DNA of 64,000 nt. Origin: Fabrea salina. Taxonomy: Eukaryota > Ciliophora > Heterotrichea > Heterotrichida > Fabreidae. Both the position numbers and the translations under genes were made by a program. The DNA lies in NCBI GenBank assembly GCA_022984795.1, contig JALIHJ010000037.1, forward strand, positions 186,001-250,000. The letters are read 5' to 3'. The notes under the pieces were generated by a model. It saw nothing but the letters and a program-made list of their open reading frames with translations, made no database searches and was not told the origin of the DNA. Below are positions 43,301-64,000 of this stretch, piece by piece (the first letter of the stretch is position 1; every line of letters begins with the position of its first letter).

Positions 43301-46300
43301 AGAGAACCTGTTCAAGAGAAGGTTTTCCAGGGAGTGGGCAAGGGTGGACTGCTGGGAAGTTGAAAAAGTACTCCAGAGCTGAGGAAATATGTAGCAGAAG
43401 AAATAGTGCGCTGCTGGCAAATTGATCATTTGGCGAAGTGGTTTCAAAACGTCGGAAGCAGACTTGAGTGAGTTGTGGTGAATGTACCACTGGTGTTGGC
43501 GAAGGAACTCAGCAGTGTCTCGGTCAAAGGAGTCTTCGAAGTCGTCTGAAAGTTGGGGTCTAACTACAACTCCTTCTTCCAAGCAACCCAGCAATAAGTC
43601 AACTGAAGACTTAGCCCACGCTTTGGGTTCTGCTGCGTCAAGTTGCTCAGTTACGAAGATCAGCCTTCTCCAAACAGAAGTTCCAAGCATTTCCTTAAGA
43701 ACCCTGTCGAACTCAGGCTTAAGGGAGTGCGCAGGGTCCTTCAGCAAAAAGTGGAGAATGTTTTTGCAAAGCGTAATCCGGGGTTCAAAGGAGTCTTTGT
43801 TGTTTGAAAGAACTCGGAGGGCTATTTCCAAGGGAACACTGGCGTGGCTAATTTCGAGTCTGAAAGACTTGAAAAGGTTCAGCAGTAAAGAACACTTGTC
43901 TTTCGTAGTAAACATAGGGTCGTTTTCTGAGGACTCTAGCCAGATTTCGATGACTTTGCATCCTTCCATGATTAACTTGGATTCTGTTTTGCACTCAAAA
44001 ATGCTGGACAACAAGTGCTTAAGTATTTTTTTGTGGTCTTCGTTCAAAGCAGTGATGTTGTTGTGGATGATTTTCAAAGCAGTGAGGAGAGTGTCTATTT
44101 TCATGTCCTTGATAGGTCCCATGTCTTGTTGGATTTCTTTTATCAAAGAAGAGCACATCAGCAGTAGGTTTTTCATGTGAATTGTGATGTCGATAGGAGA
44201 AACTTCACTGATGACAGCTAACAGTTTAACTGCCCAGGAGTAGTTTTGAGTGCAGTCGTTAGACAAAGAACTTTCCAGGATCTCATTGAGCAGCATAAGG
44301 ATTTCGTTAGCAGGCACTTCTAGCAAGTTAGAAATGATGTCGCACAAAAGCTTAATCATGTTGGGGTATTCATTAGCTTTTACTTGGGAAGCGAGGTAAC
44401 GCACTAAGTCTGGGTACTGGATGATGGCGTTGCGAGTTGGGTGTTCTGAAAGTATTTTGATGATGTCTAAACTGCGGATTAACAGTTTCCTCTGACTGTC
44501 AATGACGTTGGTTCGGTGGGGTTGGTTTTGGTTTTGCTGGACTAGGTTCATGCACTTCTTCAGTGCGTCTGTCCAGTTTTTGGCTTTGAAGTTAACGTCT
44601 CCCCACAAACTGAGGGCCCGTTTTAGGTTTTGTTGGCACTTAGTTGAAAGAAAGTTCATTTGTTCAAAACTCCTTTGAGGCTGCTTCGAAATGTACAGAG
44701 CTGGTGCTTGGCCGAACCTTGCAAAGAAGTTAATCAGCATTTCCTTGTGGTGGGCTGCAATGTAACTTTCAGAGGACTCTTCTGCGTGGCGTTGTGACCA
44801 CTCTATCATCAAAGCTGTAAGGTCCAAGAGGGTTTTTTTGGCATTGTAGTTAGAGTGCAGTCCAAGTCCTAAGTGGTTTATCCAACTCAAAAAGTGGTTA
44901 GTCAGTCCTTCTCGAATGTGGTAAAACACACTTTGGTTCTTGATGATGATGTCAATTACGTGCATCATTGAACTGAACTCCCTAGTTTCGTGGAACAGGT
45001 TCTTCCTCACGAAGTCAGTTAAGTAGTCCTTCAACTTGGCGTCTCTAAAAAGTGCACTTAACTTTTCAGACAAGTAAGAAAAAGCTTGCTGGGAACTTGG
45101 TTGGAGTTCGTTGTGGTGGGCTTTGAGCAAAGCTCCCAAGAGTTGCACAGTTAGGGTGTCAGGCAAGTTGTAAACATTTATGAACCTTGCTACGTTCACA
45201 TAGGCGTTTCCTTTTATAATGGGGTTTTCTGACTTAATCATTCCCCAAAAGAACTTTATAAGTACTTTGCGGTAGGGGTAAAACTCTTCCTTGAGGTTTT
45301 CAATTAAAATTGAACCTAAGTTCATTAACTGCACACACAACTGGTTGGAGTAGTCTTCTAGGTGGTGTTTGATCAAGCGAATGGCAGAGTCTTGGAGTGA
45401 CTTCTGTATAACTTCTTTCCCCTGTTCCATTTTGAAAGTCCTCATTAAAAAAGGAATTACGAAGTGCTCCAGCACCTTTGACTTGTGCCCGTCAGAAACC
45501 TCTTTTCTGCTGAGGAACTGCATCACTTGCTTCATGGTTGAAAACTTTTGTCTGGGACACAGAATCTGTGGAAGTTCTTTTTGGAGGAAGTTGGTCAGGA
45601 AGTCTGAGTTCCAGATGTTTTTTCGGCCGTAAGACAAAGGCAACTCAAACAGAACGTCTATAACTCCCTTTCTAATGTTGAACCTGATGTAACTAATGAA
45701 CGCTTTGACTAAGTACTTCTCAATGTAAGTGGCCTTAATCAGTTCTTTTTCGTCAAACACTGGGTTTGCAAGTCGCTTGTCCCAAATGTTCTTGAGGACT
45801 GATATAAGGTCCTCTTTAGTAGAGATCCACCTAGTCATGTGCTTAGTCAGTCCGTTTACTATTTTCATCCCCTTGTACACAAGCTCTGTGTTTCCGTAGT
45901 CCGAAAAGCACTTGGTTATAAGTATTTCTTGGTACCTCCTTGCAACGATGTCTCTGAGTCCAAACCCCATAGGGTGTTTCAGAAGGTTAATGAAGTACCT
46001 CAGCAGCTTTTTTTCGTGGAACTCTTTTTCAAAGAAGAACTCTATTATTTCACTGGGGAACCTCACCAAGAACTTTATGAGTTGGTGCGAAATGATCGAG
46101 TTGAGGAACCCCTGCATTCCGTTTTTCTGGAGACTCTCCTCAGCTTTCATGAAGCCTTTGATTACGTCTGGAAGGATCTCTACAGCACAGTTAGGCATCA
46201 AGTGAAACAAGTTAGCAATGTTGGGAATAAGTGGCAGTTGGGGACGGTTGTGCTCGTTGCAGTAGTCGTTGAGGTGTCTCAAAAGACGATTGCCTAAGTT

Positions 46301-49300
46301 GGTGTTGAAGCAGTTAGAAATGACTTCCAGGAGCCTTGCTAGGTTCTGGATCCTTAAGAGACTAGGGGGTTTGCTGCTTTTGGCAAGTTCAAGTAAAATA
46401 GGCCTGAGGCACTGTTTGAGTTCTTCTTGGGGCAAAATGGTGTTTTTGTCTTCGGAAAGGATCTTAACTACTCCCTGTTTAGCTATTTCAGTTACTTGTT
46501 GATCCCTGCTTTGACTCAGCACTACCAAAAACACAGACGCTATTTTGTTTCTTAGGTTTGTGCACAAGTCGTTTTTTTCAGCAATTAGCTCCCAAGTTGA
46601 GGGACTTGAAATAAATGCTTTCAGGGCTCCGCAAAAGGCCACTTTTTCTTGTAAAATAACATCAGGCCCTGTAGTGTTTGCTCTGTCTTCTTTTGGGTCC
46701 TCTACTTTTTCGTGTTCCTTCATCACGTCAGTTAGGAGTTTGTGGATCTTAGCAATGTTTTCACTGGAGATCTCTAGCAATTGGTTTTCTACCAAGTAAG
46801 TAAAAGCTTCTAGAACTGCTGCCTTCACTGTGAGGTGGACACTTGCTAAGCTTTGCGAAAACACTACTTCAACTACTTGGTCTCTGAGGGAAGCTTCGTT
46901 CCGGTTCAGCGAAAACGGAGACTGCAAAGGAACAACTAAACTCGAAAGGTCGGCATCAAGGGACCCAAGTAAGTTCCTCACTTGTTGTCTTAACACAGGA
47001 GACCTAGAAAACAGCCCTCCAGCTAAGTACCCAATAACTGCTTCTCTGGGAACGTAATCAACTACTAACTTAAACAAATTCACAGGTTCGTCTATCAGCA
47101 AAGTTTTGAAAGTAGCTGGAAAACACTCTAAAATGTGGAGTGAAGTACGCAAAAGCAATTCAGCGTGGGACTGGATCAGCGACTGGGGAAACTTAGGCAG
47201 CAAGCGGTTAAGTCCGCCACAAGCGCCTACTTGAGTAGTCCACTCTTGTTTGTAGCAAGTTCTTTCTAAAGACAAGAGGACCTGCCTCACAGACTCACTT
47301 CTGCTCAGAGCAGGCTCGTTTCTCTGAAGTAGTTTTCCAACAGTGTTTAAGATAGTTTGGATTCCTTTAAGAGCAGCAATAAACCGGTCGTCACCTTTGT
47401 CAACATAAGCAAGTTTTTCAGAAAGCACGTCTAAGAGTTCTGTGGGGTTGAACCCTACATGTGTAAAGTCTCCTTCGACTTGACAAAACAAAAACAGTCC
47501 TATGTGGATGCACACAACTTCAAACAACTCGCCCAGTTCGTCTGACATTTCAGAAAACGCCAGTAACGAAACTATGGTTTCTACACAGTTTTTAAGAGTT
47601 TCTTGGAAGGCCATTGTGTGCATTCTGGGCACGTTAGTAGACACTTGGAACAAGCCACTTTCCCTTTTTCCAAACAAAACACTTGAAATTTTGGAGCTGA
47701 GGAGTTTTTGGTCTACTTGGAACCAACCCAAAAAGGAAGAGAGTGCAGAACTCAACAACTTACTGGCTGCAAGTAAAGTTTTCTTTTGGGTTTCGTAAAT
47801 GCTCAGTCGGTCTCTGAAGATTTTAGAAATCTTAGACAGAATGTAGTCTAGAGAAATCCTAACTGGAGGCTGCTCAGGGTCGTACTTTATAGGAATGTAA
47901 AAGGCATACGCAGGGTGCAGACTTTCACTAAGGTTGTTAAAAGGCATTTTCCGGCACTTAAAAGAAATTGGGTCTCTTTTCTCTCGGATGTAAGGACCGA
48001 GTTTGCCCAGGAGTTCCAGAATCACACTGTGGTAGCTGTACTGAGGAGTTCTGTGGAGCAGTTCAAAGAGTCTTTTGAGCAGTTCAGGAGTGATTTTGAT
48101 TCTGGACAAGTTTTCATCCAACAAAATGCAAGCAAAGTACACTCGGTCGTGACTAGAAGAGTATAAAGTAGAAAATATCACGTTCTGGGGAGGGCTGGGC
48201 AGTAGTATGGGGTCTAGTTGCTGGATCCAAGGCGTTGCAAGTTCTCTGCGGAGTTTTTCGTTTTTAAAGGCAATTCCAATGCACCTCCGGGCAAGCATCA
48301 CGAACCGAGGAATAGTTTCAGTCTTACAGAGTTCTTCGCACTTTTCAATTAGTCTTTTTCCGTGGGCTTCAAGCACATCTGAATTCAGCACTAACTCCAA
48401 AACAGTCCAGAACCTTTTTTTGATCATGTCTTTGGAGTCTTTGGCTAAGTTGGGTTTGTACTTAGCTTTGTTGTAAATACTGAGCATCTTGGCTTCCCAA
48501 ACAGCTGACTCAGGCTCCATCACTTCCAAGTTGTCAATGGCGAAGCCTATCACAATGTCTCCTAGAGCCAAGGCGTTGTCTCTGTTGGTGCGTTTGACCA
48601 TTTTAAAGATCTCTATAGTGTTGGCAGTTTCTAGGTACTTCACGAACAAAAAGGGCATGAGTTCCTGGAGTATGTCTTTGAGGGTGGCGTGGTGCAAGTT
48701 ACTAAGCAGTTGGGACACGATTTCGAACAAACTGATTTCTTCTCTTTCAGCCCCCAACTCAACGTAGATCCTAGAAGAAATAATCATATTTTTGAAAATC
48801 TTGGTAATCAACTTCACTGTTTTAAAGTCCTGGATCATGGCAGGACTTGCCCCTCCCGAAACCTTTTCCAGAATCACGAACTTAGCTAAGTCAGAGAGTC
48901 TTTTCAAAAGAGCACAAACTTCGTGGATGTTGAGACTCGACCTGGCTTGGGAGTGTCTGTCTTTGTAGTGCTTCAAGAACTCCTCTATAAGTCCCCGGCA
49001 GTACTTAAGGCGCTGGGTCACTGTCAGAAGGATCATTCGGTACATAAGGTCAATTTGGGTGGAGTTGCGGTCCCGGACCATTCTGTTGCTGCTGTCCTTT
49101 GCACTGCGGACACTTTCTAGGTAGTTCTTCAAAATAACCACAGCCTGCAGTTGGAACTGCACAAACAGGTGGATGTTGCGACAAATAAGAGCAATTGCTT
49201 TGCAGAGCTGGGGAGTGCTCATTTCGTTTCTGAAAATGTCACAAAACTCCAGCATGGCGTTGTACCAAGAACTCCGAATGCTCGAAGGCGCCAGAATCTG

Positions 49301-50230
49301 TTCCTCGTCCTCAAGCATCGAGTCAATGTGCTTGCAAAAGCCCCTTTTGTGGTTGGACTTTATGATTACTGAAAACCCATGGTACAGGTCCTTTTTGATG
49401 TTGTAAGCGTCCGAAGGGAACTTTCGCATCATGTCAATTATGGACTTGGGAAGTCTGTCTTCGTAGTTCTTGAACTCCTCAACGAACCTTTCACTCTGGG
49501 AAAACTGGGCCAAGAACTTGAGAATCCGAGTTTTGCACAGCATGTAGTCTTTTTTGAATTTCTGGTCCTTGTTAAGTCCTTCAGGGTCTTCACTGCAAAC
49601 TATTTCAAAGGAGTAAGTAATGAAGTGCTTCATAGGCACGTACTTCTGGAAGGAGTGGTACAAACTAGTGATGGCGTTGCCGCACTCAATCAAAACCTTG
49701 AGGCTGCTGTCTCTGTGCAGGAGCTGGCCTGGTTTCCTGTTCATAGCTCTTAAACAGATTTCTTTGTAGTCCTGGAACATCTTTTCAGCGTACCTGACGA
49801 ACTGGTTGATGTTGGACTCTGCAATGATGTCTTTGAAGGTGCGTGCGAGCTCTATGTGCAGTTTTATAGCCAACGCAGCGTTTTCTTCGTTGTCGGAGTT
49901 CATGACTTCTTCTGTTATTTTGTAAAGTTGTTGATTGAAGTTCCGGAAAGGCTCTAGATTAGGACACTTAAGAACTATTTCCAAAATGTTTTGTCTAGCT
50001 GTGTTCTCAGCGCAGTCCGTGAACTGGGGAGGAATTCTTCTTAAAGTCTGGATGAGTTCAGGAAATATTTGGACCATGTAGTTAGGTTGGTCTGCTCCGT
50101 AATAAGAACACCTGTCTAAAAAATCCTTTAGTTCATTAATTACTTCTGGTAACTCAGTTGCTTGTGACTTAAGCCTTTCTCGAAGCGACTCGAACCTCCG
50201 ATTTCTAGATGGGTTTTGGTCATCAGACAT
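40322..50230 (-). CDS. TRRAP: TRRAP/Tra1 pseudokinase scaffold of SAGA and NuA4
   Basis: TRRAP/Tra1 is the activator-binding subunit of histone acetyltransferase complexes SAGA and NuA4. The 3,302-residue protein is a long helical HEAT array (to ~2350), a FAT region (~2400-2850), a PI3K-like domain (~2950-3230) and a FATC end (final QPDWWYPWF). The kinase-like region has YLYEGVTLDPRHVVLGVPPNAVSL and GEFGLRMSPNIVTMLG as in TRRAP. It lacks the HRD- and DFG-type catalytic residues of true PIKKs, as expected for this pseudokinase. TOR, ATM and DNA-PK are excluded on that basis. There is no intron. It is the largest complete gene here and starts 16 bp from the acyl-CoA oxidase stop. Confidence 0.95.
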   Translation of the reverse strand: MSDDQNPSRNRRFESLRERLKSQATELPEVINELKDFLDRCSYYGADQPNYMVQIFPELIQTLRRIPPQFTDCAENTARQNILEIVLKCPNLEPFRNFNQQLYKITEEVMNSDNEENAALAIKLHIELARTFKDIIAESNINQFVRYAEKMFQDYKEICLRAMNRKPGQLLHRDSSLKVLIECGNAITSLYHSFQKYVPMKHFITYSFEIVCSEDPEGLNKDQKFKKDYMLCKTRILKFLAQFSQSERFVEEFKNYEDRLPKSIIDMMRKFPSDAYNIKKDLYHGFSVIIKSNHKRGFCKHIDSMLEDEEQILAPSSIRSSWYNAMLEFCDIFRNEMSTPQLCKAIALICRNIHLFVQFQLQAVVILKNYLESVRSAKDSSNRMVRDRNSTQIDLMYRMILLTVTQRLKYCRGLIEEFLKHYKDRHSQARSSLNIHEVCALLKRLSDLAKFVILEKVSGGASPAMIQDFKTVKLITKIFKNMIISSRIYVELGAEREEISLFEIVSQLLSNLHHATLKDILQELMPFLFVKYLETANTIEIFKMVKRTNRDNALALGDIVIGFAIDNLEVMEPESAVWEAKMLSIYNKAKYKPNLAKDSKDMIKKRFWTVLELVLNSDVLEAHGKRLIEKCEELCKTETIPRFVMLARRCIGIAFKNEKLRRELATPWIQQLDPILLPSPPQNVIFSTLYSSSHDRVYFACILLDENLSRIKITPELLKRLFELLHRTPQYSYHSVILELLGKLGPYIREKRDPISFKCRKMPFNNLSESLHPAYAFYIPIKYDPEQPPVRISLDYILSKISKIFRDRLSIYETQKKTLLAASKLLSSALSSFLGWFQVDQKLLSSKISSVLFGKRESGLFQVSTNVPRMHTMAFQETLKNCVETIVSLLAFSEMSDELGELFEVVCIHIGLFLFCQVEGDFTHVGFNPTELLDVLSEKLAYVDKGDDRFIAALKGIQTILNTVGKLLQRNEPALSRSESVRQVLLSLERTCYKQEWTTQVGACGGLNRLLPKFPQSLIQSHAELLLRTSLHILECFPATFKTLLIDEPVNLFKLVVDYVPREAVIGYLAGGLFSRSPVLRQQVRNLLGSLDADLSSLVVPLQSPFSLNRNEASLRDQVVEVVFSQSLASVHLTVKAAVLEAFTYLVENQLLEISSENIAKIHKLLTDVMKEHEKVEDPKEDRANTTGPDVILQEKVAFCGALKAFISSPSTWELIAEKNDLCTNLRNKIASVFLVVLSQSRDQQVTEIAKQGVVKILSEDKNTILPQEELKQCLRPILLELAKSSKPPSLLRIQNLARLLEVISNCFNTNLGNRLLRHLNDYCNEHNRPQLPLIPNIANLFHLMPNCAVEILPDVIKGFMKAEESLQKNGMQGFLNSIISHQLIKFLVRFPSEIIEFFFEKEFHEKKLLRYFINLLKHPMGFGLRDIVARRYQEILITKCFSDYGNTELVYKGMKIVNGLTKHMTRWISTKEDLISVLKNIWDKRLANPVFDEKELIKATYIEKYLVKAFISYIRFNIRKGVIDVLFELPLSYGRKNIWNSDFLTNFLQKELPQILCPRQKFSTMKQVMQFLSRKEVSDGHKSKVLEHFVIPFLMRTFKMEQGKEVIQKSLQDSAIRLIKHHLEDYSNQLCVQLMNLGSILIENLKEEFYPYRKVLIKFFWGMIKSENPIIKGNAYVNVARFINVYNLPDTLTVQLLGALLKAHHNELQPSSQQAFSYLSEKLSALFRDAKLKDYLTDFVRKNLFHETREFSSMMHVIDIIIKNQSVFYHIREGLTNHFLSWINHLGLGLHSNYNAKKTLLDLTALMIEWSQRHAEESSESYIAAHHKEMLINFFARFGQAPALYISKQPQRSFEQMNFLSTKCQQNLKRALSLWGDVNFKAKNWTDALKKCMNLVQQNQNQPHRTNVIDSQRKLLIRSLDIIKILSEHPTRNAIIQYPDLVRYLASQVKANEYPNMIKLLCDIISNLLEVPANEILMLLNEILESSLSNDCTQNYSWAVKLLAVISEVSPIDITIHMKNLLLMCSSLIKEIQQDMGPIKDMKIDTLLTALKIIHNNITALNEDHKKILKHLLSSIFECKTESKLIMEGCKVIEIWLESSENDPMFTTKDKCSLLLNLFKSFRLEISHASVPLEIALRVLSNNKDSFEPRITLCKNILHFLLKDPAHSLKPEFDRVLKEMLGTSVWRRLIFVTEQLDAAEPKAWAKSSVDLLLGCLEEGVVVRPQLSDDFEDSFDRDTAEFLRQHQWYIHHNSLKSASDVLKPLRQMINLPAAHYFFCYIFPQLWSTFSTSQQSTLAHSLENLLLNRFSVESSFQYFPVKTILISIASSYPQPVIRPEILQFLAKTHNAWNIVIPMLESYYEGFGDRKNNIYLENLLERLNEKEQLVGSWISRAVNPETVEALSHLVVGNWIDCRAKLEQLLQNENYLNDMEILQKAWVQCVQNTGDWQTLRHYGSMMDDLSLVEACWHLNDKPGVKEAAQKLGVLAHPTVQHYLQVLELLDLSPEEFFSQVKEMKKKEDHLSISSVVREWGSLPKYPCSAHTPIVQQLDMKFEFNECLQLTKPLEEIAQSGVPTQQVNNKVFRSRITSIQDGVGVWESLFKARTLTFDIMNSVLSRMQGPSSSSQFEESIWTKIHYARLLRKSGSYRAALNLLKQIDHRINSENKFLLNREIVKLCFENKEHEAALSVINKCLQEDSLEVEYKSELMRLKGKAYSSNPEAYQLAYSNFANSSEVWANNLKTWLNWGCLIANQLQKTPSLCANAVCCLLLGVRKNPEKHKNYLPKIFLLLEKAPEKDSLDEYFLKLPCKVYLPWIPQMLRSLSKPHGETYFKICQKLADTEPQKLFFHVRSLLIEKEELHPEEESQEKLHLVKLHTELKLRHPLLAETLNFLCTNLTQNLKLSLEEDLYSALNVLYEHLCRSETSCQVLQKAFQLITEKFFLKEENQEFSDKYFGSFSEEFNTDLFNDSFQTKKALKRWMEWLSEDLVGRFSLEQECLELATFYSKEVKIPVAETTLERFISQVETLKLKNCNRVLGVRGGDASDHHMLLQVTAPYKQDSLLLNQVMVLMSHYLNSTSIPHTISGSNFYLYEGVTLDPRHVVLGVPPNAVSLQTVYELVMDEQSQDPESPAEVSRFLFVSYIQRCLQSADRFAVFKNQFTAQWGLLYVLCLLLNTQLQEQTLSNIWFCKTNGSICFNLMNLGLGNSGEFGLRMSPNIVTMLGRTGIQGTMPAVICNACRAMLKKWDSFGPALEFILRDQANFDLSGVYKRLEKGSEPQLVSRHLQELMNCSGQPDWWYPWF

Positions 50231-50246
50231 TTTATTTTTATAAACA

Positions 50247-52199
50247 CTAAAGTTTAGGTTTAAGGACTTTTTGGACTCCTGGAAACACTCTGTAGTTGTT
50301 CACTGGGTTGAGGTACTTGCTGGTCCAAAGCATAGACGGGTAAATGTTGCCGTCTCTTTTGCCTATTACGGAGTTCAGAGTTTGGTCAGGAATTTCAAAG
50401 GCTTCTATCAAGGCCAAGGCATTTGGTCTTGTTGCCTCATAAGCTTTGTGCAACAAACCAGTCAAAGAGTCCACTACAGATCCTTCCATTCCCTGCCTCA
50501 GCAAAGTTGAGTGCCACTTCGTAAGTTCAGAAACTGCAAAAACAACTCTCAGTTGCTCTAAAGCTTGGGAGACACTAGGGTCCCTTACTTCTTGAATTGA
50601 GTTTAAAAAGGCTTGGTGAGTTATGCTGAGGTAAAGTGCTTCAGCTGCTTCTATTCCTTCGTGTTGCAGGTGGAAACTCCAAATTTCCTGTATGCTGTGT
50701 CCAGCTTCGTGGAGTTTCCTTTCTTTTTCAAACACTGCGTAAATAGTAGAGCGAGCAGCAGCGTCAAAAAGCACTTGGTGGAAGTGGGGGTCGGAGGGGT
50801 TTCCTTGTAGAGAGTCAGTGGCTTCAAGTATCTTTTTGAGCTTAGGTGGCAGTTCTTCTCCCTTCTTGGCGTGTCTTAGTCTGGACATTACGTACTTGGC
50901 TCCCTGCAGAATCAAAATGCTATTGTCTCCATCGTAAGTAATTGAAGGCAAGTAGTTAGCATATATTGAAGGCAGTCCAGATACCATTAAGTACCCGTGT
51001 CCTCCGCAACTCCTTCTGCAGATTTCAGTAGCTTCCAAAGACCTGCTTGTAGCAAAGCCCTTAAATATGGAAACTATCCCGTGTAGTTCCCCCAGACGGG
51101 AGTCGTCTCCGTTCTCAATTAGGACTCTGCACTTTTCGTACAGGTCCTTGATTTCGCTTCCTGCAAACACCAAAGCAAAGAGCCTTGCCAAACAAGTAAA
51201 CAGTTTATGCTGCTGGATCTGGTAGTCTAGTATTTGGAGTTCCTTTTTGGGGTCTGAAGGGCTCCCAAACTGCCTCCTCACTAAAGAGTACCTAATTGCT
51301 ATAGTCAGTGACAGACACAAAGGGTGCCAAGAATCCTTTGCTAGGTTAGCTCTTGCCTTCACTAGTGAAAAGTAAAGGATCTTTAAAGCATTTGGGTCAA
51401 TTATTTCGTACTCTCCTCCCTGTTTAACTCTAGCAAACCTGTTGAGCATGGCTTCTCTGGGAATTCTGAAGAATTCAAACCTCAAAAACCCGTTGTCAAT
51501 GCTGTGACTTCCGAGTTTAGGACCAACGTCTCCTACGAAGATGCCCGGAAGCGGTTCATAGGTCTTCATGTTTCTTATTTGGACAATAAAAGCGTGGGGT
51601 CCGTAGTCCACATCCTTTACTATAAGTCGAGCCACCACTAAAGCATGAGTTGAAGCCACTCCTAAGCCGCCAACCCACCACTTGCAAGCTGTGAATGAAG
51701 GGGTGTTCAGTATGAACCCGTCAGTTTCTGGTTCGTAAGTAGCTCTAGTTTCTATGCCTCTTACATTGGATCCGTGGCCTAGTTCAGTTTGGGCGTAGCA
51801 CCCTAGAATTTCGCACTTTTCGGCTTTAGGAACCCAGTACTTCCTTTGTTCTTCACTTGACTGGATTTCTAGTGCCGACATAAACAAGTCGTAGTGAATG
51901 ATGTGGGAAGTTAGTTCTGGGTAGTAAGACATAACTACTCTCCTTTCGTCTTCACTTAAGTTTTCTTTGTTGAAAACTTCCTTCATAGCTACTCCTTGCC
52001 TCAAGCCCCTTTCGATCTGGGCAGCTCTGCTTTCGACGTACTTTTCCAAAGAGTAGTTTAGCTCAGGAATTTTGTTTAGTTTTGACTTAAAGGCTCTCAG
52101 TCTTTCAAGGGGAGTCCCAGGAATTATTTTGCCAGTCAAGAGTGCAGTAAGTTCTTCGGAACTTATGGTTGCCCTTCTCCTTTCGTCTTCTAAACTCAT
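50247..52199 (-). CDS. Acyl-CoA oxidase
   Basis: Peroxisomal acyl-CoA oxidase performs the first step of beta-oxidation, passing electrons from FAD to O2. The 650-residue length is typical. Domains in order: N-terminal helical part (~1-130), beta domain with CYAQTELGHGSNVRGIETRA (~133-155) and KWWVGGLG, then C-terminal helical domains with RRQFGSP and RRSCGGHGYLM. The catalytic base position, Glu421 in rat ACOX1 (TYEG), is Asp423 here (ITYDGDNSIL). The C-terminus PKL is a plausible weak variant of the PTS1 peroxisomal signal. Bifunctional dehydrogenases are excluded by length and motifs. Confidence 0.94.
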   Translation of the reverse strand: MSLEDERRRATISSEELTALLTGKIIPGTPLERLRAFKSKLNKIPELNYSLEKYVESRAAQIERGLRQGVAMKEVFNKENLSEDERRVVMSYYPELTSHIIHYDLFMSALEIQSSEEQRKYWVPKAEKCEILGCYAQTELGHGSNVRGIETRATYEPETDGFILNTPSFTACKWWVGGLGVASTHALVVARLIVKDVDYGPHAFIVQIRNMKTYEPLPGIFVGDVGPKLGSHSIDNGFLRFEFFRIPREAMLNRFARVKQGGEYEIIDPNALKILYFSLVKARANLAKDSWHPLCLSLTIAIRYSLVRRQFGSPSDPKKELQILDYQIQQHKLFTCLARLFALVFAGSEIKDLYEKCRVLIENGDDSRLGELHGIVSIFKGFATSRSLEATEICRRSCGGHGYLMVSGLPSIYANYLPSITYDGDNSILILQGAKYVMSRLRHAKKGEELPPKLKKILEATDSLQGNPSDPHFHQVLFDAAARSTIYAVFEKERKLHEAGHSIQEIWSFHLQHEGIEAAEALYLSITHQAFLNSIQEVRDPSVSQALEQLRVVFAVSELTKWHSTLLRQGMEGSVVDSLTGLLHKAYEATRPNALALIEAFEIPDQTLNSVIGKRDGNIYPSMLWTSKYLNPVNNYRVFPGVQKVLKPKL

Positions 52200-53734: not shown

Positions 53735-56700
53735 ATGGCTAATCATCCCTATGAAAAAGCAGGGGTGTTTTCAAAACTCACGTTCCGCTGGGCAAAACAA
53801 CTTATCGACAACCCCAAAGACACCTTGGGAACTCCAGAAACTCTGGACCCCGAGCCCTACTACGAGGTTCTTAAGCAAAATTGGCATCTAGAACAACAAA
53901 AACAAAAACCAAGCCTTTTCAAAGCAATATTCAGGACTTACGCCAAAACACTGGTGTGGAAGATGTCCCCCATTGTGCTTGATATATTTGTACAAGTGGG
54001 TGTTGGGATTCTACTAGGGTACTTCATTGAATACCTGCAGGCAGGCGAAAATGAAGAAAACCCAGGCATTGGGTATGTTTATATTTGTAGCATAATCTGT
54101 TGCATACTTTTCACTCTTTTCAACAAACACACAGCTTTCCACAACGCAACTATCATGGGAGGAGTTATCAAACAAACTATTTACATGCTTGTTTACGATA
54201 AACTCATGAACCTGTCACATGAAGTCATACACGCAGGCTCTGCCCAGGGCAGAATCACCAACATTGCTTCTCTCGACATAGAACCCTTCGAGCTTTCCTT
54301 TCTGCTAAACTTTCTGTGGATTTCTCCCTTAGCAGCAGTAGTCGTTAGCATAGTACTTTTGGTAGAAGTCGGGCCTGCAGGACTCATTGGAATGCTAACT
54401 ATAGTAGGTTTAGTTCCAATTCAAGTCAAAGTAAACAGGTACACCATCAAACTCCACCGCAACATGGCCACCACTGCAGACACCCGGGCAAGGCGCACGG
54501 CTGAAATCATGGACGGAATCCGAGTCCTCAAGATGTATGGCTGGGAAACTGAGTACGCCAAAAAGGTTTTTGAGTACCGCAGCAAAGAAGTTAACTACAA
54601 CAGGTACAGACTCTCAATCAGGGCTTCCAACATGAGTTTGTTTTTGATAGCTCCTGGGTTAGCCTGTCTCACAACCTTTGCAGCCCACACAAGCATTTAC
54701 GGAGAAATAGAACCCAGCACTATATTCAGCACCTTGTCGCTCTTTATCACAGCTCAGTTCTACTTAACAACTATCTTTCCCTTTGCAGTAGAGTTCATTT
54801 CAAAGTTCACTGGAGCTGCTAAAAGAATTGAGGACTTCATGGAGGAAAAAGAACACCAGCCTGTCCACAAACCCTACAAACAAGGTTACGTCAAACTCGA
54901 CAGCGTAGAGACCATGTGGAAAGACCCCCGAAACCCGTCTGAACCCAACACCGCTTCTGAAGAAAACGATCTTGTCAAAGACCAAGACGAGTTTTGCTTA
55001 AAAAGTGTATCGATGAAGGTCAGAAAAGGCGACCTGTGCTTTTTGATTGGTAAAGTTGGTTCAGGCAAAACTTCTTTACTTCTAACTATTTTAGGTGAAA
55101 TGCACGTCAGCCAAGGCGACATTTACAGGTCAGGAACAATAGCCTACGTTGAACAAGAACCGTGGATCGTCTCAGGCAGCATCAAACAAAACATCACCCT
55201 AGGCAAGCACTTTGACCCCGAAAAGTATGAAGAAGCACTTAAATGTTCTGCTCTCATTGAAGACTTAGAAAGAATGCCTAAAGGGGACGAAACACTCATT
55301 GGAGAAAAAGGAGTCAACGTAAGCGGAGGCCAGAAAGCCAGACTCGCACTTGCAAGGGCCATTTACGCAGACGCTGATATTTACATGCTAGATGACCCAC
55401 TCAGTGCTGTCGATGTACGCATAGCAAGGCATATTTTCGACAAAGCCATTACAGGTTGTCTTGCCCACAAAACAGTGATCTTGGTAACTCACCAAACACA
55501 GTTCATTGACAGAAGAGCTAAAGTTTACAAGGTTAGTCACGGAACTGTAGAAAAGGTTTCTGAGTCAGCCGAGTTGCTTGAAGAAAAAGACAAAGTCCAC
55601 CACGAGGCCGACGAAGGCCAAGAAGAAGGATTTGCCAAAGAAGCTGTTGAGGAAGACTTAGAGTCTGTTAAGTGGTCCACTTACTGGAAGTACATGGTGA
55701 AGGGTTGGTGGTGGATAATCCCTCTGAACATTATTCTCTACCCAGTGACTATGCTGCTTTACATGGGAGTGCCTTTTTGGCTGTCTTACTGGTCTGAACA
55801 GGAAGAAAGGGACGACTTCTACTACATAGAAGTACTTGCCTTGATAGTGGGAGCACTCTTTGTGTTGGGATTGGCTAGAAACAACTTGTTCATCCAGGCC
55901 CTTCAAACTTCCTCTAAGAAGATACACAACGAAGCTCTTATGAGGATGGCTAGAATGCCTACTCGGTACTTTGACGAAAATACTTCGGGCAAAATCATGG
56001 GGAGACTCAGCAACGACGTTGCAAGGATGGACGAGTTCCTTACTTGGTTCTTTGTAGACATGCTCCAGGTATGCTTTATCACTTTGGGAAGCGCTATTGC
56101 AATGCTTGTAGGCAACCCTTACATGCTGGTGGGTTTCATACCTATGCTTATTGCTTTGAAGTTAGTTCACAGAAAATCTTTTTACGCTACCCAAATCTTA
56201 TACAAAAGGTTCAACGCCAGCAAAAGCCCCATTCTTACACACATGAACACCACCCTGTCCGGACTTTTTGCTCTGAGGAGCTACGGGCTGCTCCAGAACC
56301 TCAGGAAGGTCTTTGTGGACACTTGCTCTTTCAGCAACAACTCTTTTTTCGAGTACCAGTCTGGAATGCGTTGGATGCACTTTGCAAACGACTCTTTAAA
56401 TGCTATTTTTCTGAGTTTGATGCTTTTGAGTTCAATGATCCTGGTAAACTACCTAGACAAAGCCCTCCTAGCAACTGGGTTATCAATGCTGCTGATTTTG
56501 TTTGTTAACTTGATTTGGCTCATGATTCAAGTCACTCAAGTGCAAACATTCATGGCTAGTGCAGAAAGAATGCTGGACTACTCAAACTTAGCCACTGAAA
56601 AAGAACTTACAACTCAGCACTCTCTCTCTGTTAAAGGAGGCCAAGTGGAGTTCGAAAACGTAGTCCTCAAGTACAACGAAGACATCACAGCCTTAAACGG

Positions 56701-57373
56701 AGTGAGTTTCAAGGTCCTCCCAGGCGAAAAAATAGGCATAGTAGGCAGAACTGGTGCAGGCAAGTCTACCATTATCCAGGCCCTTTTCAGAATGGTCGAA
56801 GTCAGCTCTGGAAAGATCTACATCGACGGAACAGACATCTCGGTGTTGGGACTCCACACTTTGAGGAAAGCCATTGCAGTCATTCCCCAGTCGCCCTTCA
56901 TATTCACTTCTTCGATCAGGTACAACCTAGACCCCTTCAACGAAAAAACTGATGCTGAAATTTGGGAGGCTTTGAGTTTGGCTTCTCTGGGCGAAAAAGT
57001 AAGTTCCATGAAAGAAAAACTCAACGAAGAACTCAACTCCAACTCCTTTTCAGTCGGAGAAAAGCAACTTCTGTGCTTAGCACGTGCTTTGCTCAAGAAG
57101 TCTAAAGTCTTGGTGATGGACGAAGCCACTGCCAACGTGGACTACGAAACTGACCAAATCATCCAGAACTCCATCAGAGACAAGTTTGTGCAGAGTTCAG
57201 TCATAGTTATAGCCCACAGACTCGACACCATCAGGAACTCAGACAGAATCATAGTCATGCAGGAAGGCAAGGTCAAGGAAATCGGACCTCCAGAAGAACT
57301 TCTATCGAACCAAGACAGTGCATTTGCTCAGATGATCGCTATTTCAGACAAAAACTCTAAGAAAGGAGACTAA
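53735..57373 (+). CDS. ABC transporter, subfamily C (MRP-like full transporter)
   Basis: A 1,212-residue full ABC exporter with the ABCC short (no TMD0) layout. TMD1 is ~70-380. NBD1 has Walker A GKVGSGKTS (~438), signature VSGGQKARLALARAIYAD (~528) and Walker B YMLDDPLSAVD (~549). A charged linker leads to TMD2 (~660-930), then NBD2 with Walker A GRTGAGKST (~1003), signature FSVGEKQLLCLARALL (~1105) and Walker B VLVMDEATANVD (~1126). DDPLSAVD with Asp rather than Glu after Walker B in NBD1 is typical of MRPs. The start TFRWAKQL is the usual ABCC entry helix. Likely exports conjugates; substrate and membrane are unknown. The upstream 105-bp spacer is one of the longer ones and A/T-rich. Confidence 0.95.
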   Translation: MANHPYEKAGVFSKLTFRWAKQLIDNPKDTLGTPETLDPEPYYEVLKQNWHLEQQKQKPSLFKAIFRTYAKTLVWKMSPIVLDIFVQVGVGILLGYFIEYLQAGENEENPGIGYVYICSIICCILFTLFNKHTAFHNATIMGGVIKQTIYMLVYDKLMNLSHEVIHAGSAQGRITNIASLDIEPFELSFLLNFLWISPLAAVVVSIVLLVEVGPAGLIGMLTIVGLVPIQVKVNRYTIKLHRNMATTADTRARRTAEIMDGIRVLKMYGWETEYAKKVFEYRSKEVNYNRYRLSIRASNMSLFLIAPGLACLTTFAAHTSIYGEIEPSTIFSTLSLFITAQFYLTTIFPFAVEFISKFTGAAKRIEDFMEEKEHQPVHKPYKQGYVKLDSVETMWKDPRNPSEPNTASEENDLVKDQDEFCLKSVSMKVRKGDLCFLIGKVGSGKTSLLLTILGEMHVSQGDIYRSGTIAYVEQEPWIVSGSIKQNITLGKHFDPEKYEEALKCSALIEDLERMPKGDETLIGEKGVNVSGGQKARLALARAIYADADIYMLDDPLSAVDVRIARHIFDKAITGCLAHKTVILVTHQTQFIDRRAKVYKVSHGTVEKVSESAELLEEKDKVHHEADEGQEEGFAKEAVEEDLESVKWSTYWKYMVKGWWWIIPLNIILYPVTMLLYMGVPFWLSYWSEQEERDDFYYIEVLALIVGALFVLGLARNNLFIQALQTSSKKIHNEALMRMARMPTRYFDENTSGKIMGRLSNDVARMDEFLTWFFVDMLQVCFITLGSAIAMLVGNPYMLVGFIPMLIALKLVHRKSFYATQILYKRFNASKSPILTHMNTTLSGLFALRSYGLLQNLRKVFVDTCSFSNNSFFEYQSGMRWMHFANDSLNAIFLSLMLLSSMILVNYLDKALLATGLSMLLILFVNLIWLMIQVTQVQTFMASAERMLDYSNLATEKELTTQHSLSVKGGQVEFENVVLKYNEDITALNGVSFKVLPGEKIGIVGRTGAGKSTIIQALFRMVEVSSGKIYIDGTDISVLGLHTLRKAIAVIPQSPFIFTSSIRYNLDPFNEKTDAEIWEALSLASLGEKVSSMKEKLNEELNSNSFSVGEKQLLCLARALLKKSKVLVMDEATANVDYETDQIIQNSIRDKFVQSSVIVIAHRLDTIRNSDRIIVMQEGKVKEIGPPEELLSNQDSAFAQMIAISDKNSKKGD

Positions 57374-58749: not shown

Positions 58750-59244
58750 TTACTTAGAAATTAAGTTAAGCGTATGTTCCTTAAGCATTCTCCGAAGTAT
58801 AGACACGGTTTTTTACTTAGAATTTATTTTTGACTGCCAGCACAGTAAGTCTTCTGGCTGCATTCAGGCTTTTGTTAGGCCAGTCTTTAAACTGCTGCAA
58901 GGCTTCAACTGGAAATCCCACAAACAATACTCCTGCAATTGGTCATTCAACTCTAATTAGTTATTGCTGCAATAAATGCTTCTAAAATTGGTTTCATTGC
59001 TCCAACCAAGTTCTGAAAGGTTCGACTCTACCTACTCAGGAAAAAACACTAGCCTGCACTTCTTGAATAGTCCACCTTACCTGTTTTATTCCACTTGGTT
59101 AGAAGTCAAGTATCGTTCAGAATAAAAAGTAATCCTTCTGGGAAACCATAAAAGTCCAAATTGGGCCCTAGAGTTGGAACTCACTCACTGCAACTATATC
59201 TATGCTTGTATTGCTAAGTATTATAGTACTTAAAAAGTAACATG
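58750..59244 (-). pseudogene. Gene-poor spacer with a decayed minus-strand coding fragment
   Basis: No intact gene is present here. On the minus strand, 58942-58818 reads PIAGVLFVGFPVEALQQF and on to a C-terminus ending AVKNKF then TAA. Just upstream (about 59000-58953), KPILEAFIAAITN is followed by a stop. Further up, a FYGFPEGLLFILN-like stretch lies in another frame. These look like remains of one protein's C-terminal part, broken by stops and shifts. I do not recognise the family. The rest of the spacer shows nothing. Confidence 0.4.
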
Positions 59245-59700
59245 TGCAGATTTCCTCAAAGTCACCGAAGCAACAACAGAGCAAGAAGTACAGATGAAAA
59301 CCTACATCAAACACAACAGCAACAGGAGAAACTCAATAGCAACAATACATGGATGGAGAGCAGGTTACAACGATACAGCGTACATCTAAGACATCAACAA
59401 AACAACAACAGATGCCAAGCACGCGGAGAAATAGAGACAGTAAGGCACATAACAAACGAATGCCCAGCTTACCAGTATGAAAGGCAGACCCTAATCGAAG
59501 AACTAACACAAAGTCGATGAGAGCATAGACCTATACGACATCGTCCTCTGCAGTAAAAAGTTTGAAAAACATGCTAAATGCCAAAAACCCCAACAAGTAG
59601 ACGGAGTCATCAAGAACTTTGTTGACTGGGTTTACAGAAGAAGAAACTGTAACAAAGTCAACGCTCCCTGTATTCCTAAAAAGGCCCAAGGACTCGATAA
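59245..59700 (+). mobile_element. LINE (non-LTR retrotransposon) 3'-end fragment, first copy
   Basis: Pieces in more than one frame read like the end of a LINE reverse-transcriptase ORF: NRRNSIATIHGWRAGYN, then RCQARGEIETVRHITNECPAYQYERQ, then KNFVDWVYRRRN. The second piece follows the zinc-binding pattern C..C/G....ET..H....CP.Y...R found after the RT/RNase H region in many LINEs. One Cys of the pattern is Arg and the frame is interrupted between the pieces. The element is therefore a dead fragment, with only its last few hundred bases kept. Confidence 0.6.
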
Positions 59701-59734
59701 AATAACAATTGAATTAAAGTCTCGTCGATACACA

Positions 59735-60000
59735 ATGACGCAATAAGCACATGGAACCAGACCCCAACTGCACCTGGTGTAAGCAAGAAGAGACAATCGA
59801 ACACATTCTGGAATACTGCCCAAAAACACAATCTCAAGAGAAAACTGAGGACAATCCCAAGGAAACACTCCGAACCAAGGGAATCACTCATCTACCACTT
59901 AGTACTAGAGTCAGACAAACTAAAGGAAGAAACCAGCCAACACGAGACAAAAGCAAAAATTAGACAAAGAAATCAAGAACTACGTCAACATCACGATCTT
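59735..60000 (+). mobile_element. LINE 3'-end fragment, second copy in the same orientation
   Basis: About 350 bp after the first fragment, the same motif order appears again: NCTWCKQEETIEHILEYCP (complete CxxC...H....C zinc pattern, 59766-59822), then a Lys/Gln-rich stretch, then KLDKEIKNYVNI, which corresponds to IKNFVDW of the first copy. The two fragments differ clearly, so they are separate insertions or an old duplication. The frame changes between the pieces. Confidence 0.6.
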
Positions 60001-60347: not shown

Positions 60348-63300
60348 ATGGAACCAAAGCAACGCCAAGTTGAATTCAAGGGCTCAGAGCTAGTTGAAGC
60401 CCAACGCAGTGAGCTACTCAACAAAGCAGTGGCAGCCTCAATTCTAGAGAGTCTGAAAAAACCATCAACAGTCTGGTTCATCATGGGCTGCATTCTACTT
60501 GCACTGGAGTCAGAAATCGGAGGCTCAATTGCTATTCTGGCGGTTCTGCTCACCAGAATCCTTTTTGACTATTTTATTGAGTACAGTCCACCCAGAAACT
60601 CTCACTGCAGAGTGTGGACTGGAATCAGTTTCCAAGAAATGCAGTCCTCTAAACTAAGAACAGGGGACTTAGTTCTTCTTGAGCAGAACCAAAAGTCTCC
60701 CTGCAAGTTAGTTGCTCTGAGCTCACTGACTCCTTCTATTGAAGTTCTAAAGACTCCAAACAAGTTAGTTTTCAGGAGCCCAGTCAAGGAAACCCAAGAG
60801 CTCTTAACTCCCATTTCATTCCAGGAACTAGTCTTTTTCATCCAGACACTGAGTCTCCAAGTTAGTTTTGAAGACAAAGACTTAAGCAAGGGCAAGTTGA
60901 AACTAGAAAACTCCCCTAGAAGCACTGAGTTGATGAAGAGTAATTTTATCAACAAGGGCTCTGTTCTAGTTTCTGGCTGGGTGGTTGGCTTAGTTGTTTT
61001 GGGTGGAGACCCTTCAGTTCGGAAGTTCAGTTCCTATTTCAGAAAGTCAGTCATGCAACTAGGCTGGATTTTAATTGTGTTTTCGGCACTGACTATAGGA
61101 GTACTGGCTCTGTATGAAGCACTGGCCGAGGACAGAAGTGCTGACTTGGTCTTTTACTACTTATATTCCTTGGTGCTGGTTCCTCTGCCCCTTTTGATTC
61201 TGCTGGATGTTCTGAGGTTCCTTTACTCAAGAAAGTTCCAAAAAAGGTTCCCAGACATAACCTTCAACAAAAAACTCCTCAACGAAGACCTAGCTAAGAT
61301 AGAGTACTCTGTAGTTGCCAAGTCCAATTTACTCAAGAACGAAGACTCCAAGGTAAGTTCTTTCTCTACTCCTTCTAGTTGCTACGACTTGAACCAAACC
61401 CTTTTCGAGAAAGACCGTTCGAGTGCTGACTCTTTTTACAACAACATTCTACTCAAAGACGAACACTTTGAAGTATTTGTCCAAGCTGTAGCTGTGTGCA
61501 GCTCTGTTCAAGACAACTTCAGAGAAAACCTTTCGTTCCAAGACATTGCTATTGAAGACCTTCTGGAGAAACTAGGAGTTAAAACTTCCAAAGACAGTGA
61601 CTACTTGCTTCTTGCAAACTCAGAAACTGTCCAGAGCTTCAAAGTTCTTAAGAGCCAGCCCAGCAAGTCCTCTAAAGTCAGAGTGCTGGTTGAAAACTCA
61701 GGTTCCTTTTGTCTGTTCGTGAGGGGAACTAAGCAAAGCATGGAAGGGATCATGGAAGAGCAAGACTTTGGAAGTGGAGTTCCAATTTGCTATGCAGCTG
61801 CAACTCTGTCAAGAGAAGAAGTTGACCAGTTGCTTAGAGACTATGACTATGCAGCTTCTGTCCCTTTTGAGTCACAGGCCAAGATCAACCAAGTCTTCCA
61901 AAACTACGAAAGGAACTTGGACTTTGTAGGTGCTGTGGTGATGAGTGCCCAAGTAAGTCAGGAAACCAAAAAGACCATCAAGAAGATGAAGAGTGCCCAA
62001 ATCAAACATGTGCTGGTGAGTTCTGACTCCTACGAAAACACTCTAAATGCTGGAGTGAGCAGTGGAATACTTGGAACTGGCAACTCACTTGTGCAAATAG
62101 AGAACTCACTTTCTCCATTGACACTTAAAACTGACTTGGAGGAACTACTGAATGGACTGCTGTTTAGTGAGCCCGACCAGAGTCTAGCTGTTGGGCCTCA
62201 GGGCTTTTCCAAGAGCTTTTCAGAAAGACTGAGTCGTTTCAGAGACTCCGACCAGTTGAAGAATGTTTACTACGAGTTCATGGACCCAGAAAACAAGGTG
62301 TTCAACGCAAGGATCAAGTATGACAAAAAAGCCAACGTCCACCCTTTCCTTGAAAAGGTCTTGACTATGAACAAGTCTGAGTTGCTGAGTTTTAAAAGGC
62401 ACTTCAAACCAAGCAACTTCGACTTAGTGCTTTCTGGAGAAGTACTTAGTGATGCTTTAAGCACTGAAGAAAACAGACTCTACTTAGCAATCCTTTTCCT
62501 ACTAGCTGAGTCAGTTGTTGTGGGTTGTCTCTCTAATAAGAAGTTAGTTTACAACTTCATCAAAGAGTGCAACTCCAATTCTACTGTACTTAGTCTATGT
62601 TCCCAACTAGAGTCAGAGGTGACTGTGGGTCCAGACTCTGAGTTCGAAGTAAGAGACTACAAAGCACTGAGCAAACTCATTTTCAAGGTAGGAGTCTCTA
62701 CTTTCCTGGGACTTAAAAAGGCTTGTGAGCTTTACTTCTACCAAAGTTTCCTTGTTTTTAGTCTGAACTCAGTGTTTCTAGTTTACTCAGGACCAAGTTC
62801 ATTCACAGTAACTGGCTTGACTTTCTACGACGTGCTTAGCTACTGCAGACTCTCCAGTCCACGAAGATACCAAGAGTCTTAGATTCCTAGTCAAGGCCCT
62901 GATTGAGTCTACTCTCCATTCACTGCTCATTAATGCTGGACTCATTCTCACCTACACAAGCATCACTGACTCTAGAGGCTTCACTGAAAACCAAGACTTA
63001 CTGACAAGTTCCTACATTTTGTGCTTTTACCTCACCACTCAACTAAGGATTCTGCTGTCTATGCCAACTTACACTCTCCGCAGAACCCTTGGAAGTCTTT
63101 CTTTAGCACTGCTTGTGATCACTCTTGTGTTCTTCAAGTACGGTGTTGTCTACAGTCCCTTCTACGTGGTGTTCAGCTCCCCCAAACTGGCTTTAGTAGT
63201 TCTGACTCTGCCTCTGGTTAACTTCGTCTTGTCCTACTGTTTCCAAAGAGTGTCTTTAAGAACCCCAAAACCACTCCAACTCAAAAAAAGCATCAAACTC

Positions 63301-64000
63301 TACAAGTCCAAGTTCCTGAAGTCCAGAAACATTGAAGAAGACTACCAAATTGACAAAGTGAGTCTAAGTTTCAAAGACCCAGACACTAATCGCAAGGTAC
63401 CACAACTACATGGTAAAGCAGAACTTAAGGAAGTACAGAATTGTTGTACTCAGTTTCTTGCTTATAACTACCATTTCCCAAGTTTGGAGACTACTTAGCT
63501 CAGAAATTGACTTTTACTACTTTTTGGTTGTTTACTTCATCCAAGCAGTAGTGCTGGGCATTCTTTACTTCACCAAGAGTTGCAAAGAACTATATTTCCC
63601 TTGTCAACTTTGCTTTTGGAGTTTACTGCTTAATAGTCATTGTGGTTGCAAGAAATTCCTTTGAAGAAGTTTCCCCAATGATTTACACTATGATTCCAAC
63701 ACTATACTACTTCGGAATCTACGTTTCCTGGAAACAAGCAGTAGTTCTTAGTTCAGCAAGTTTAGTAGTAGCTTTTGAGGACTTTTCCAGGTACTTCCAA
63801 GACCACGGTTTTGAGGGAGCCGAGTTAATTTTCAAAAATATGTTTTTTGTGCTTTACTGTGTTTTGATAATGATGATCTGTGCGACCATAAGCTTACCAA
63901 CAAAACTACGTCAGTCTAAAAGACTACAGCCTCAACCAACTAGCTAAAAAGAAAACAGAGACTGCTTACAACATTGTGAGTTTCCTGTTCCCTGAAGAAG
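60348..64000 (+). CDS. Degenerate P4-ATPase-like half of a probable guanylyl cyclase, partial; frame interrupted
   Basis: The first 844 codons (to 62882) have the layout of a P4-ATPase: paired N-terminal membrane segments, an actuator-like region (GDLVLLEQNQKSPCKLVALSS), the stretch FINKGSVLVSGWVVGLVV, then LNEDLAKIEYSVVAKSNLL, which stands where DKTGT should be. TGDK reads SSDS, and TGDGxND is gone. It therefore cannot be a working pump. Coding continues with membrane-rich sequence in successively shifted frames (about 62840-63400, 63400-63570, 63570-63890, 63892-64000). It reaches LNQLAKKKTETAYNIVSFLFPEE, similar to the helix before a class III cyclase domain. Such ATPase-cyclase fusions with altered ATPase sites are known in ciliates and apicomplexans. 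The cyclase domain itself lies beyond the edge, so the call is inference. Either unrecognised introns or true frameshifts explain the breaks. Confidence 0.65.

Follow-up and report, generated by a model that had tools for sequence, protein, structure and literature searches.

The right-hand end of the stretch analysed here, a window of 64,000 nucleotides of the heterotrich ciliate Fabrea salina, a salt-pond species (G000:C34:186001-250000, in a genome assembly of 18.33 Mb and 103 contigs), carries the lipid-flippase-like half of a guanylyl cyclase (GC), in which the catalytic motifs of P4-ATPases have been replaced. It is one copy of a large family of P4-ATPase/guanylyl cyclase fusions, and most of the members that we compared have lost the residues for pumping and retained those of the cyclase site. 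We lean, with somewhat better than even confidence, towards the explanation that the dead flippase half would act as a non-pumping membrane input module on an intact guanylyl-cyclase pair, and that what lies in the window is a subtelomeric copy of such a gene, in broken form. This explanation is preferred because the pump chemistry is gone, the fold is kept and the output site is invariant.

Thirty cyclase loci were examined, and the locus counts given here are lower bounds, since only the best candidates were scored against profiles. At least 28 loci (L009-L036) are P4-ATPase/cyclase fusions, each matching the family profile of the ATPase half as well as that of the cyclase. Single uninterrupted frames of 1875-2108 amino acids (aa) from stop to stop were found at 21 of these 28 loci. 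The other seven are interrupted, the window copy (L033) among them, and six of the seven are no more than 5 kb away from a contig end. Contig C20 (288 kb) carries nine of the 28 fusion loci (L017, L019, L021, L023, L024, L025, L028, L030 and L031), and three of these fall between 16 and 39 kb. Two further class III cyclases, L037 (G000:C81) and L038 (G000:C14), have one PF00211 match each and matched neither of the fusion-family profiles.

Members were compared in a near-full-length set (n = 22), consisting of the 21 uninterrupted members and L034. These 22 of the 28 loci entered the full-length alignment, the cyclase tree and the conversion test; L015, L016, L021, L035 and L036 were left out, and the window copy was added, with its ATPase part only, to the alignment and the ATPase tree. 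All five P4 motifs were kept in two members, L009 (with DGES) and L014 (with DGET), and DKTGT in four (L009, L014, L012 and L022). The phosphorylated Asp was kept in 8 of the 22 and gone in 14, and DKTGT and the hinge Asp were both lost in 18. Across the 19 degenerate rows of the alignment, which include the window copy, the A-domain Glu and the first hinge Asp were kept in none, and the phospho-Asp position was occupied by Glu in 11, by Asp in 4 and by other residues in 4. The proline of the fourth transmembrane segment (TM4) was kept in 18 of these 19 rows. Bit scores of the fused members for PF16212 ran from 241.8 down to 24.3 over 21 places (the window copy not being in the list), and 12 stand-alone P4 frames appear in the same list.

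The cyclase site is intact throughout the near-full-length set. Its arrangement is inverted, with Asn and Arg in the first domain (C1) and the metal Asp pair in the second (C2), in all 22 members. The first-domain Glu, the residue that specifies guanine in such cyclases, was kept in 22 of 22 together with the transition-state Asn and Arg, and it stands in a KxET motif in all 22; the corresponding fragment of the window copy reads IETVGYTF. The second-domain Arg was kept in all 21 rows with letters at that position. Over the 21-row alignment, only 3 columns besides the start Met were invariant in the ATPase half, compared to 88 from position 1345 onwards. The preliminary description of this DNA had proposed a sensor or scaffold rather than a pump. 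For the family, the loss of pump residues in most members together with the intact guanylyl-cyclase site supports such a role. The window copy, on which the proposal was based, is broken and probably non-functional, so that its own motif losses cannot carry the argument.

The losses are graded. The ATPase-half tree, in which the 22 members were joined by the window copy and by a single stand-alone P4-ATPase as outgroup (L042, of whose 1094-aa open frame 999 aa were read), is ladder-like, with (L009,L014) followed by L012, then L022, and then the rest, where L011 and two clades of nine part at an unresolved fork; the window copy falls in one of these clades. On this tree the loss of DKTGT as a whole needs one change, that of the hinge Asp one, and that of the phospho-Asp at least four. 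L012 retains the A-domain Glu (MGER) but reads LSGDT and GDGNSD, and L022 reads LGKR, LSGDS and GDSSSD. The cyclase-half tree, based on separate columns, likewise groups L012 with L009 and L014. The ladder should be read with the caveats that long-branch attraction of the degenerate rows is possible and that a single outgroup was used.

The ratio of nonsynonymous to synonymous substitution rates (dN/dS) was calculated for nine chosen pairs, eight of them among dead members and two of those with the window copy. In the six dead pairs without the window copy, dN/dS of the ATPase-half regions was 0.17-0.64 (16 of 18 region values computable), to be read as rough values because dS was high, often >1. 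The pairs with the window copy gave 0.14-0.51, plus 1.06 over 51 codons of TM5-10 in the pair with L034. Judged from these substitution patterns, the ATPase half is under constraint.

In some pairs dS was far lower in the cyclase domains, with 0.06 in C1 of L030/L031 versus 1.4-2.5 elsewhere, and 0.28 in C1 and 0.10 in C2 of L017/L019 versus about 2 or more where computable. The conversion test covered all 231 pairs of the 22 rows with 200 shuffles per pair, at which about one of the 231 would pass by chance. An identity run exceeding all 200 shuffles was found in 14 pairs, and 11 of these runs were centred in C1 or C2; these two domains hold a mean of 39% of the codons that could be compared in the run-bearing pairs. 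Eight runs were long (≥37 codons), seven of them cyclase-centred, and the other 6 of the 14 were short (12-20 codons). Hence, the identity tracts are mostly cyclase-centred, and in some members the cyclase segments look homogenised by gene conversion, with diverged ATPase halves. A family-wide homogenisation of the cyclases was rejected, since a synonymous-codon identity of 0.7 was reached in only 8 of the 231 pairs for C1 and 8 of 231 for C2. Elsewhere, this level was reached in 3 pairs for the linker, in 1 for the TM1-A-TM4 region and in none for the other regions; few lineages were involved. A tentative extension, which we regard as possible rather than probable, is that the family is a receptor repertoire, in which about 20 dead P4-ATPase modules would have diversified as membrane sensors (for lipids, ions, osmotic state or changes of the membrane driven by light) on one standard cyclic GMP (cGMP) output cassette kept uniform with the help of gene conversion.

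In most members, the flippase half is not expected to go through the phosphorylation cycle any more. The flippase fold is retained where it was modelled, and this half is seated on an intact inverted C1/C2 guanylyl-cyclase pair. As an input module, it would sense the state of lipids, ions or osmolarity together with partners, for example CDC50, and cGMP output would be set by conformation instead of ATP turnover. Production of the proteins, control of the cyclase by the dead half and the nature of the sensed signal are points that we infer; salt and light as sensed inputs are guesses from the lifestyle of the host. CDC50 is the usual partner of flippases. The genome contains six CDC50 and 15 PDEase_I places, so partners and cGMP breakdown are present. 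One CDC50 match (G000:C20:21929-22660, - strand) starts 33 bases after the stop codon of L024 (C20:16068-21893, + strand).

Several observations weigh against the input-module explanation. The window copy is itself interrupted. Pair L013/L019 shows no cyclase dip in dS, one strong identity run (L019/L024) is located in the ATPase half, and the cyclase-centred pairs cannot be counted as independent, as they share members and come mostly from the C20 cluster plus one subtelomeric pair. Two results from Plasmodium point in the same direction. In P. yoelii, the cyclase part of GC-beta is reported to make cGMP independently of the ATPase domain (PMC6592433), which argues against regulation by the dead half. 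Furthermore, the phospho-Asp of Plasmodium GC-alpha was irreplaceable, and the authors put ATPase activity upstream of cGMP synthesis (PMC7858053), so that a regulatory function does not follow for a dead half.

The reported independence of the GC-beta cyclase also makes pure anchoring a serious rival. Here, the dead ATPase half would be a passive scaffold for folding, trafficking or anchoring, through CDC50-dependent membrane targeting, and would sense nothing. This is consistent with Toxoplasma, where apical targeting is reported to require the ATPase domain, the cyclase to depend on CDC50 and lipid flipping to have been undetectable (PMC7858053), as well as with the retained TM4 proline and fold and with the six CDC50 places, one of them just beyond L024. 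However, a pure anchor would have no obvious need for some 18 divergent dead versions, and the ATPase halves are far less conserved than the cyclases. We consider a passive scaffold possible but less likely than the non-pumping input module, which we retain as our working explanation.

Already known are the fusion itself, in ciliates and apicomplexans, and one degenerate case, Plasmodium GC-beta. The ciliate fusion reportedly goes back to a 1999 study, with PAC1 and PAC2 said to represent it in Tetrahymena. Tetrahymena is described as having two copies of the fusion (PMC3143110), compared to at least 28 loci here, a difference in copy number; most of the 22 members compared in F. salina have dead ATPase halves. 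Most members follow the pattern of GC-beta, a fusion with a degenerate ATPase domain; PfGC-beta has been described as having lost most ATPase signature residues and as having a working cyclase (PMC6592433, PMC5746546). Unlike P. falciparum, which has one GC-beta-type gene beside GC-alpha, F. salina has many such genes, which grade from intact into dead ones. The P4 motifs are largely kept in Plasmodium GC-alpha and Toxoplasma ATPaseP-GC, as in L009 and L014, although the GDGxND of GC-alpha is reported as degenerate. For these two proteins, cGMP output or growth is reported to depend on ATPase residues, whereas 18 of the 22 members here lack both DKTGT and the hinge Asp. Stand-alone P4-ATPases (ATP9A, NEO1, Drs2p, ATP8A1) share fold and sequence homology with the N-terminal half. 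In contrast to these, the window copy is fused to cyclases and lacks the phospho-Asp, DGET, TGDK and GDGxND.

Our searches of open-licence papers turned up no description of dead P4-GC fusions in a large radiation, and we did not meet the family size, the graded loss or the combination of constant output with variable input. For apicomplexans, cGMP synthesis is regarded as driven by the ATPase cycle. With intact, half-broken and dead fusions in one genome, the question why alveolates join a flippase to a guanylyl cyclase can be approached by comparison. Regulated cGMP from dead members would mean that the flippase fold is a sensor without pumping, and unregulated cGMP that it is a scaffold. 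The family also offers a good series for how a pump becomes a pseudoenzyme.

The window copy starts with an open frame of 844 aa (window 60348-62882), which is beyond chance, as the longest stop-free run over 500 mononucleotide shuffles did not exceed 218. Its first 830 aa (60348..62837, + strand, as are all parts of the copy) constitute the P4-ATPase-like half, assigned by profile and phmmer homology and by the structural model, and comprise TM1-2, the A domain, TM3-4, the P and N domains and the start of TM5-6. This half is homologous to P4-ATPases rather than to another P-type class. The P4 model TIGR01652 (NCBIfam) scored 61.6 bits compared to 24.6 for the P5 model, and all 20 phmmer matches to PDB chains were phospholipid-transporting ATPases, with NEO1 at the top (2e-14). 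A Pfam scan of this half gave no match above the curated cut-offs. The AlphaFold2 model (predicted local distance difference test, pLDDT, 74.3; predicted template modelling score, pTM, 0.66) has a P4-like fold; among the 50 Foldseek matches listed, ranks 1-39 were P4 flippases (best 9vdm, E 7.2e-37) and the first other class appeared at rank 40. On the TIGR01652 and Foldseek comparisons, P5 or another P-type class was rejected. The preliminary description had taken this region to be probably the ATPase half of a guanylyl cyclase, open to challenge by a better fit to P5 or another transporter family, or by a lack of cyclase domains to the right of the window. Both challenges fail, since no better match was found and two cyclase domains follow.

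The motif replacements described earlier are all present. The conserved flank of the phosphorylation site is recognisable as LNEDLAKIEY (61278..61307), AKSNL stands in place of DKTGT, with the phospho-Asp gone (61317..61331), and TGDK reads SSDS, within the VSSDS that replaces LTGDK (62016..62030). The hinge GDGxND was not found in the window copy, LSNKK (62529..62543) lying directly before the stretch that lacks it. Replacement extends to the A domain, where the position of DGE(S/T)NL reads KTPNKL in the alignment (60750..60767), and to the N domain, where RGTK replaces KGAD (61722..61733). Hence, the set of motifs of an active flippase (DKTGT, DGET, TGDK, GDGxND) is absent. The TM4 segment LVPLPLLILLDVLR (61176..61217) has kept the proline of the PISL region.

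The cyclase part begins just beyond the window. A PF00211 match of 138 bits at C34:250039-250578 starts 39 bases beyond the window end, and a second cyclase domain lies in pieces at C34:251332-251675. Two class III cyclase domains thus lie C-terminal to the ATPase half, but in broken frames; the residues of the inverted site occur in separate fragments only, and the stretch of the second metal Asp is itself split by a frame break. Some 2.3 kb past the broken copy, at 254197, the contig terminates in (GGGTGTTA)n. This repeat, seen at the four contig ends inspected, is a permutation of CCCTAACA, the telomere repeat given for the heterotrich Blepharisma (PMC9942806). On account of this repeat, an origin outside the alveolates was dropped.

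The description of window 60348-64000 as one protein was not borne out, because the frame breaks at 62837, near 63396, near 63577 and near 63890. The first break is a 35-base deletion (62837..62838), followed by a premature TAG (62880..62882). The next frame continues with the end of the ATPase-like membrane part and a linker (62884..63396; ATPase-half profile 3.4e-38) up to a single extra base near 63396. A hydrophobic linker runs on in the third frame (63395..63580, with an extra base near 63577-63580) and again in the first (63579..63895, with an extra base near 63890-63895). As had been noted, further hydrophobic segments and a pre-cyclase-like helix follow the ATPase-like part, the helix (63892..64000) leading into the first cyclase domain. 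Compared to L034 and L015, the window copy also has length differences inside and ahead of the second cyclase. As assembled, it has no uninterrupted frame through the ATPase half and both cyclases.

The window copy belongs to a subtelomeric set with L015, L016, L018, L034, L035 and L036, and the missing 35 bases are present in all six of these. Sequence around the deletion is 97-100% identical to L034, L015 and L016. Identity to L034 is 61-65% over 60348-61547 and 97-99% over 61548-63647, and then patchy at 69-99%, which is the picture of gene conversion among chromosome-end copies. The window copy is probably a broken subtelomeric copy and likely a pseudogene. Tiny heterotrich introns, which measure 15-16 bases in Blepharisma (PMC9942806), were rejected as the cause of the breaks, since the differences from the paralogs are one 35-base gap and single bases and not inserts of 15-16 bases. 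A non-standard genetic code was ruled out, as long frames are open under the standard code.

Alternatively, the breaks might be assembly errors near a chromosome end, and the true gene intact. Most breaks are length differences of one base, and the telomeric arrays themselves look noisy. However, a clean 35-base deletion in a nearly identical stretch, with the bases kept in every other copy of the set, would be atypical for a read error, and L018 is intact although it lies 1.9 kb from its contig end. We consider assembly error rather unlikely.

The same copy bears on whether the family as a whole is mostly decaying, with the pump lost, ATPase halves drifting neutrally and many copies being pseudogenes. 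The seven interrupted loci, nearly all close to contig ends, and the dN/dS of 1.06 in TM5-10 of the window copy and L034 would fit such decay. Yet, the 21 long uninterrupted frames and the low dN/dS in the six dead pairs without the window copy make it unlikely. It is very improbable that the degenerate halves have kept ATP binding or hydrolysis through an altered chemistry, along with some transport, because, even though Glu, the most conservative change, or Asp itself stands at the phospho-Asp position in 15 of the 19 degenerate rows, none of the 19 has the A-domain Glu or the first hinge Asp, and D to N at the phospho-Asp site is stated to abolish Drs2p activity (PMC7858053).

Immediately upstream of the window copy, at window 59227-59963 (+), are short open pieces with Cys/His stretches, such as CTWCKQEETIEHILEYCPKT. 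These look similar to the zinc-binding tail of retroelement reverse transcriptases, and they are perhaps element remnants beside a subtelomeric gene. Further neighbours are intron-free genes for a HECT ubiquitin ligase of 2727 aa (22476-30656, +), a Tra1-like protein of 3302 aa (40325-50230, -), an acyl-CoA oxidase (50250-52199, -) and an ABC transporter (53735-57370, +). Elsewhere in the genome, a short ribosomal DNA (rDNA) pattern has 9 exact matches and 1 with a single mismatch, on contigs C15, C22, C26, C31, C36, C48, C51, C55 and C92. On C22, C51 and C55 the matches fall in the first 6 kb, and on C31 the match is some 1.2 kb short of the contig end, so the rDNA may be subtelomeric too.

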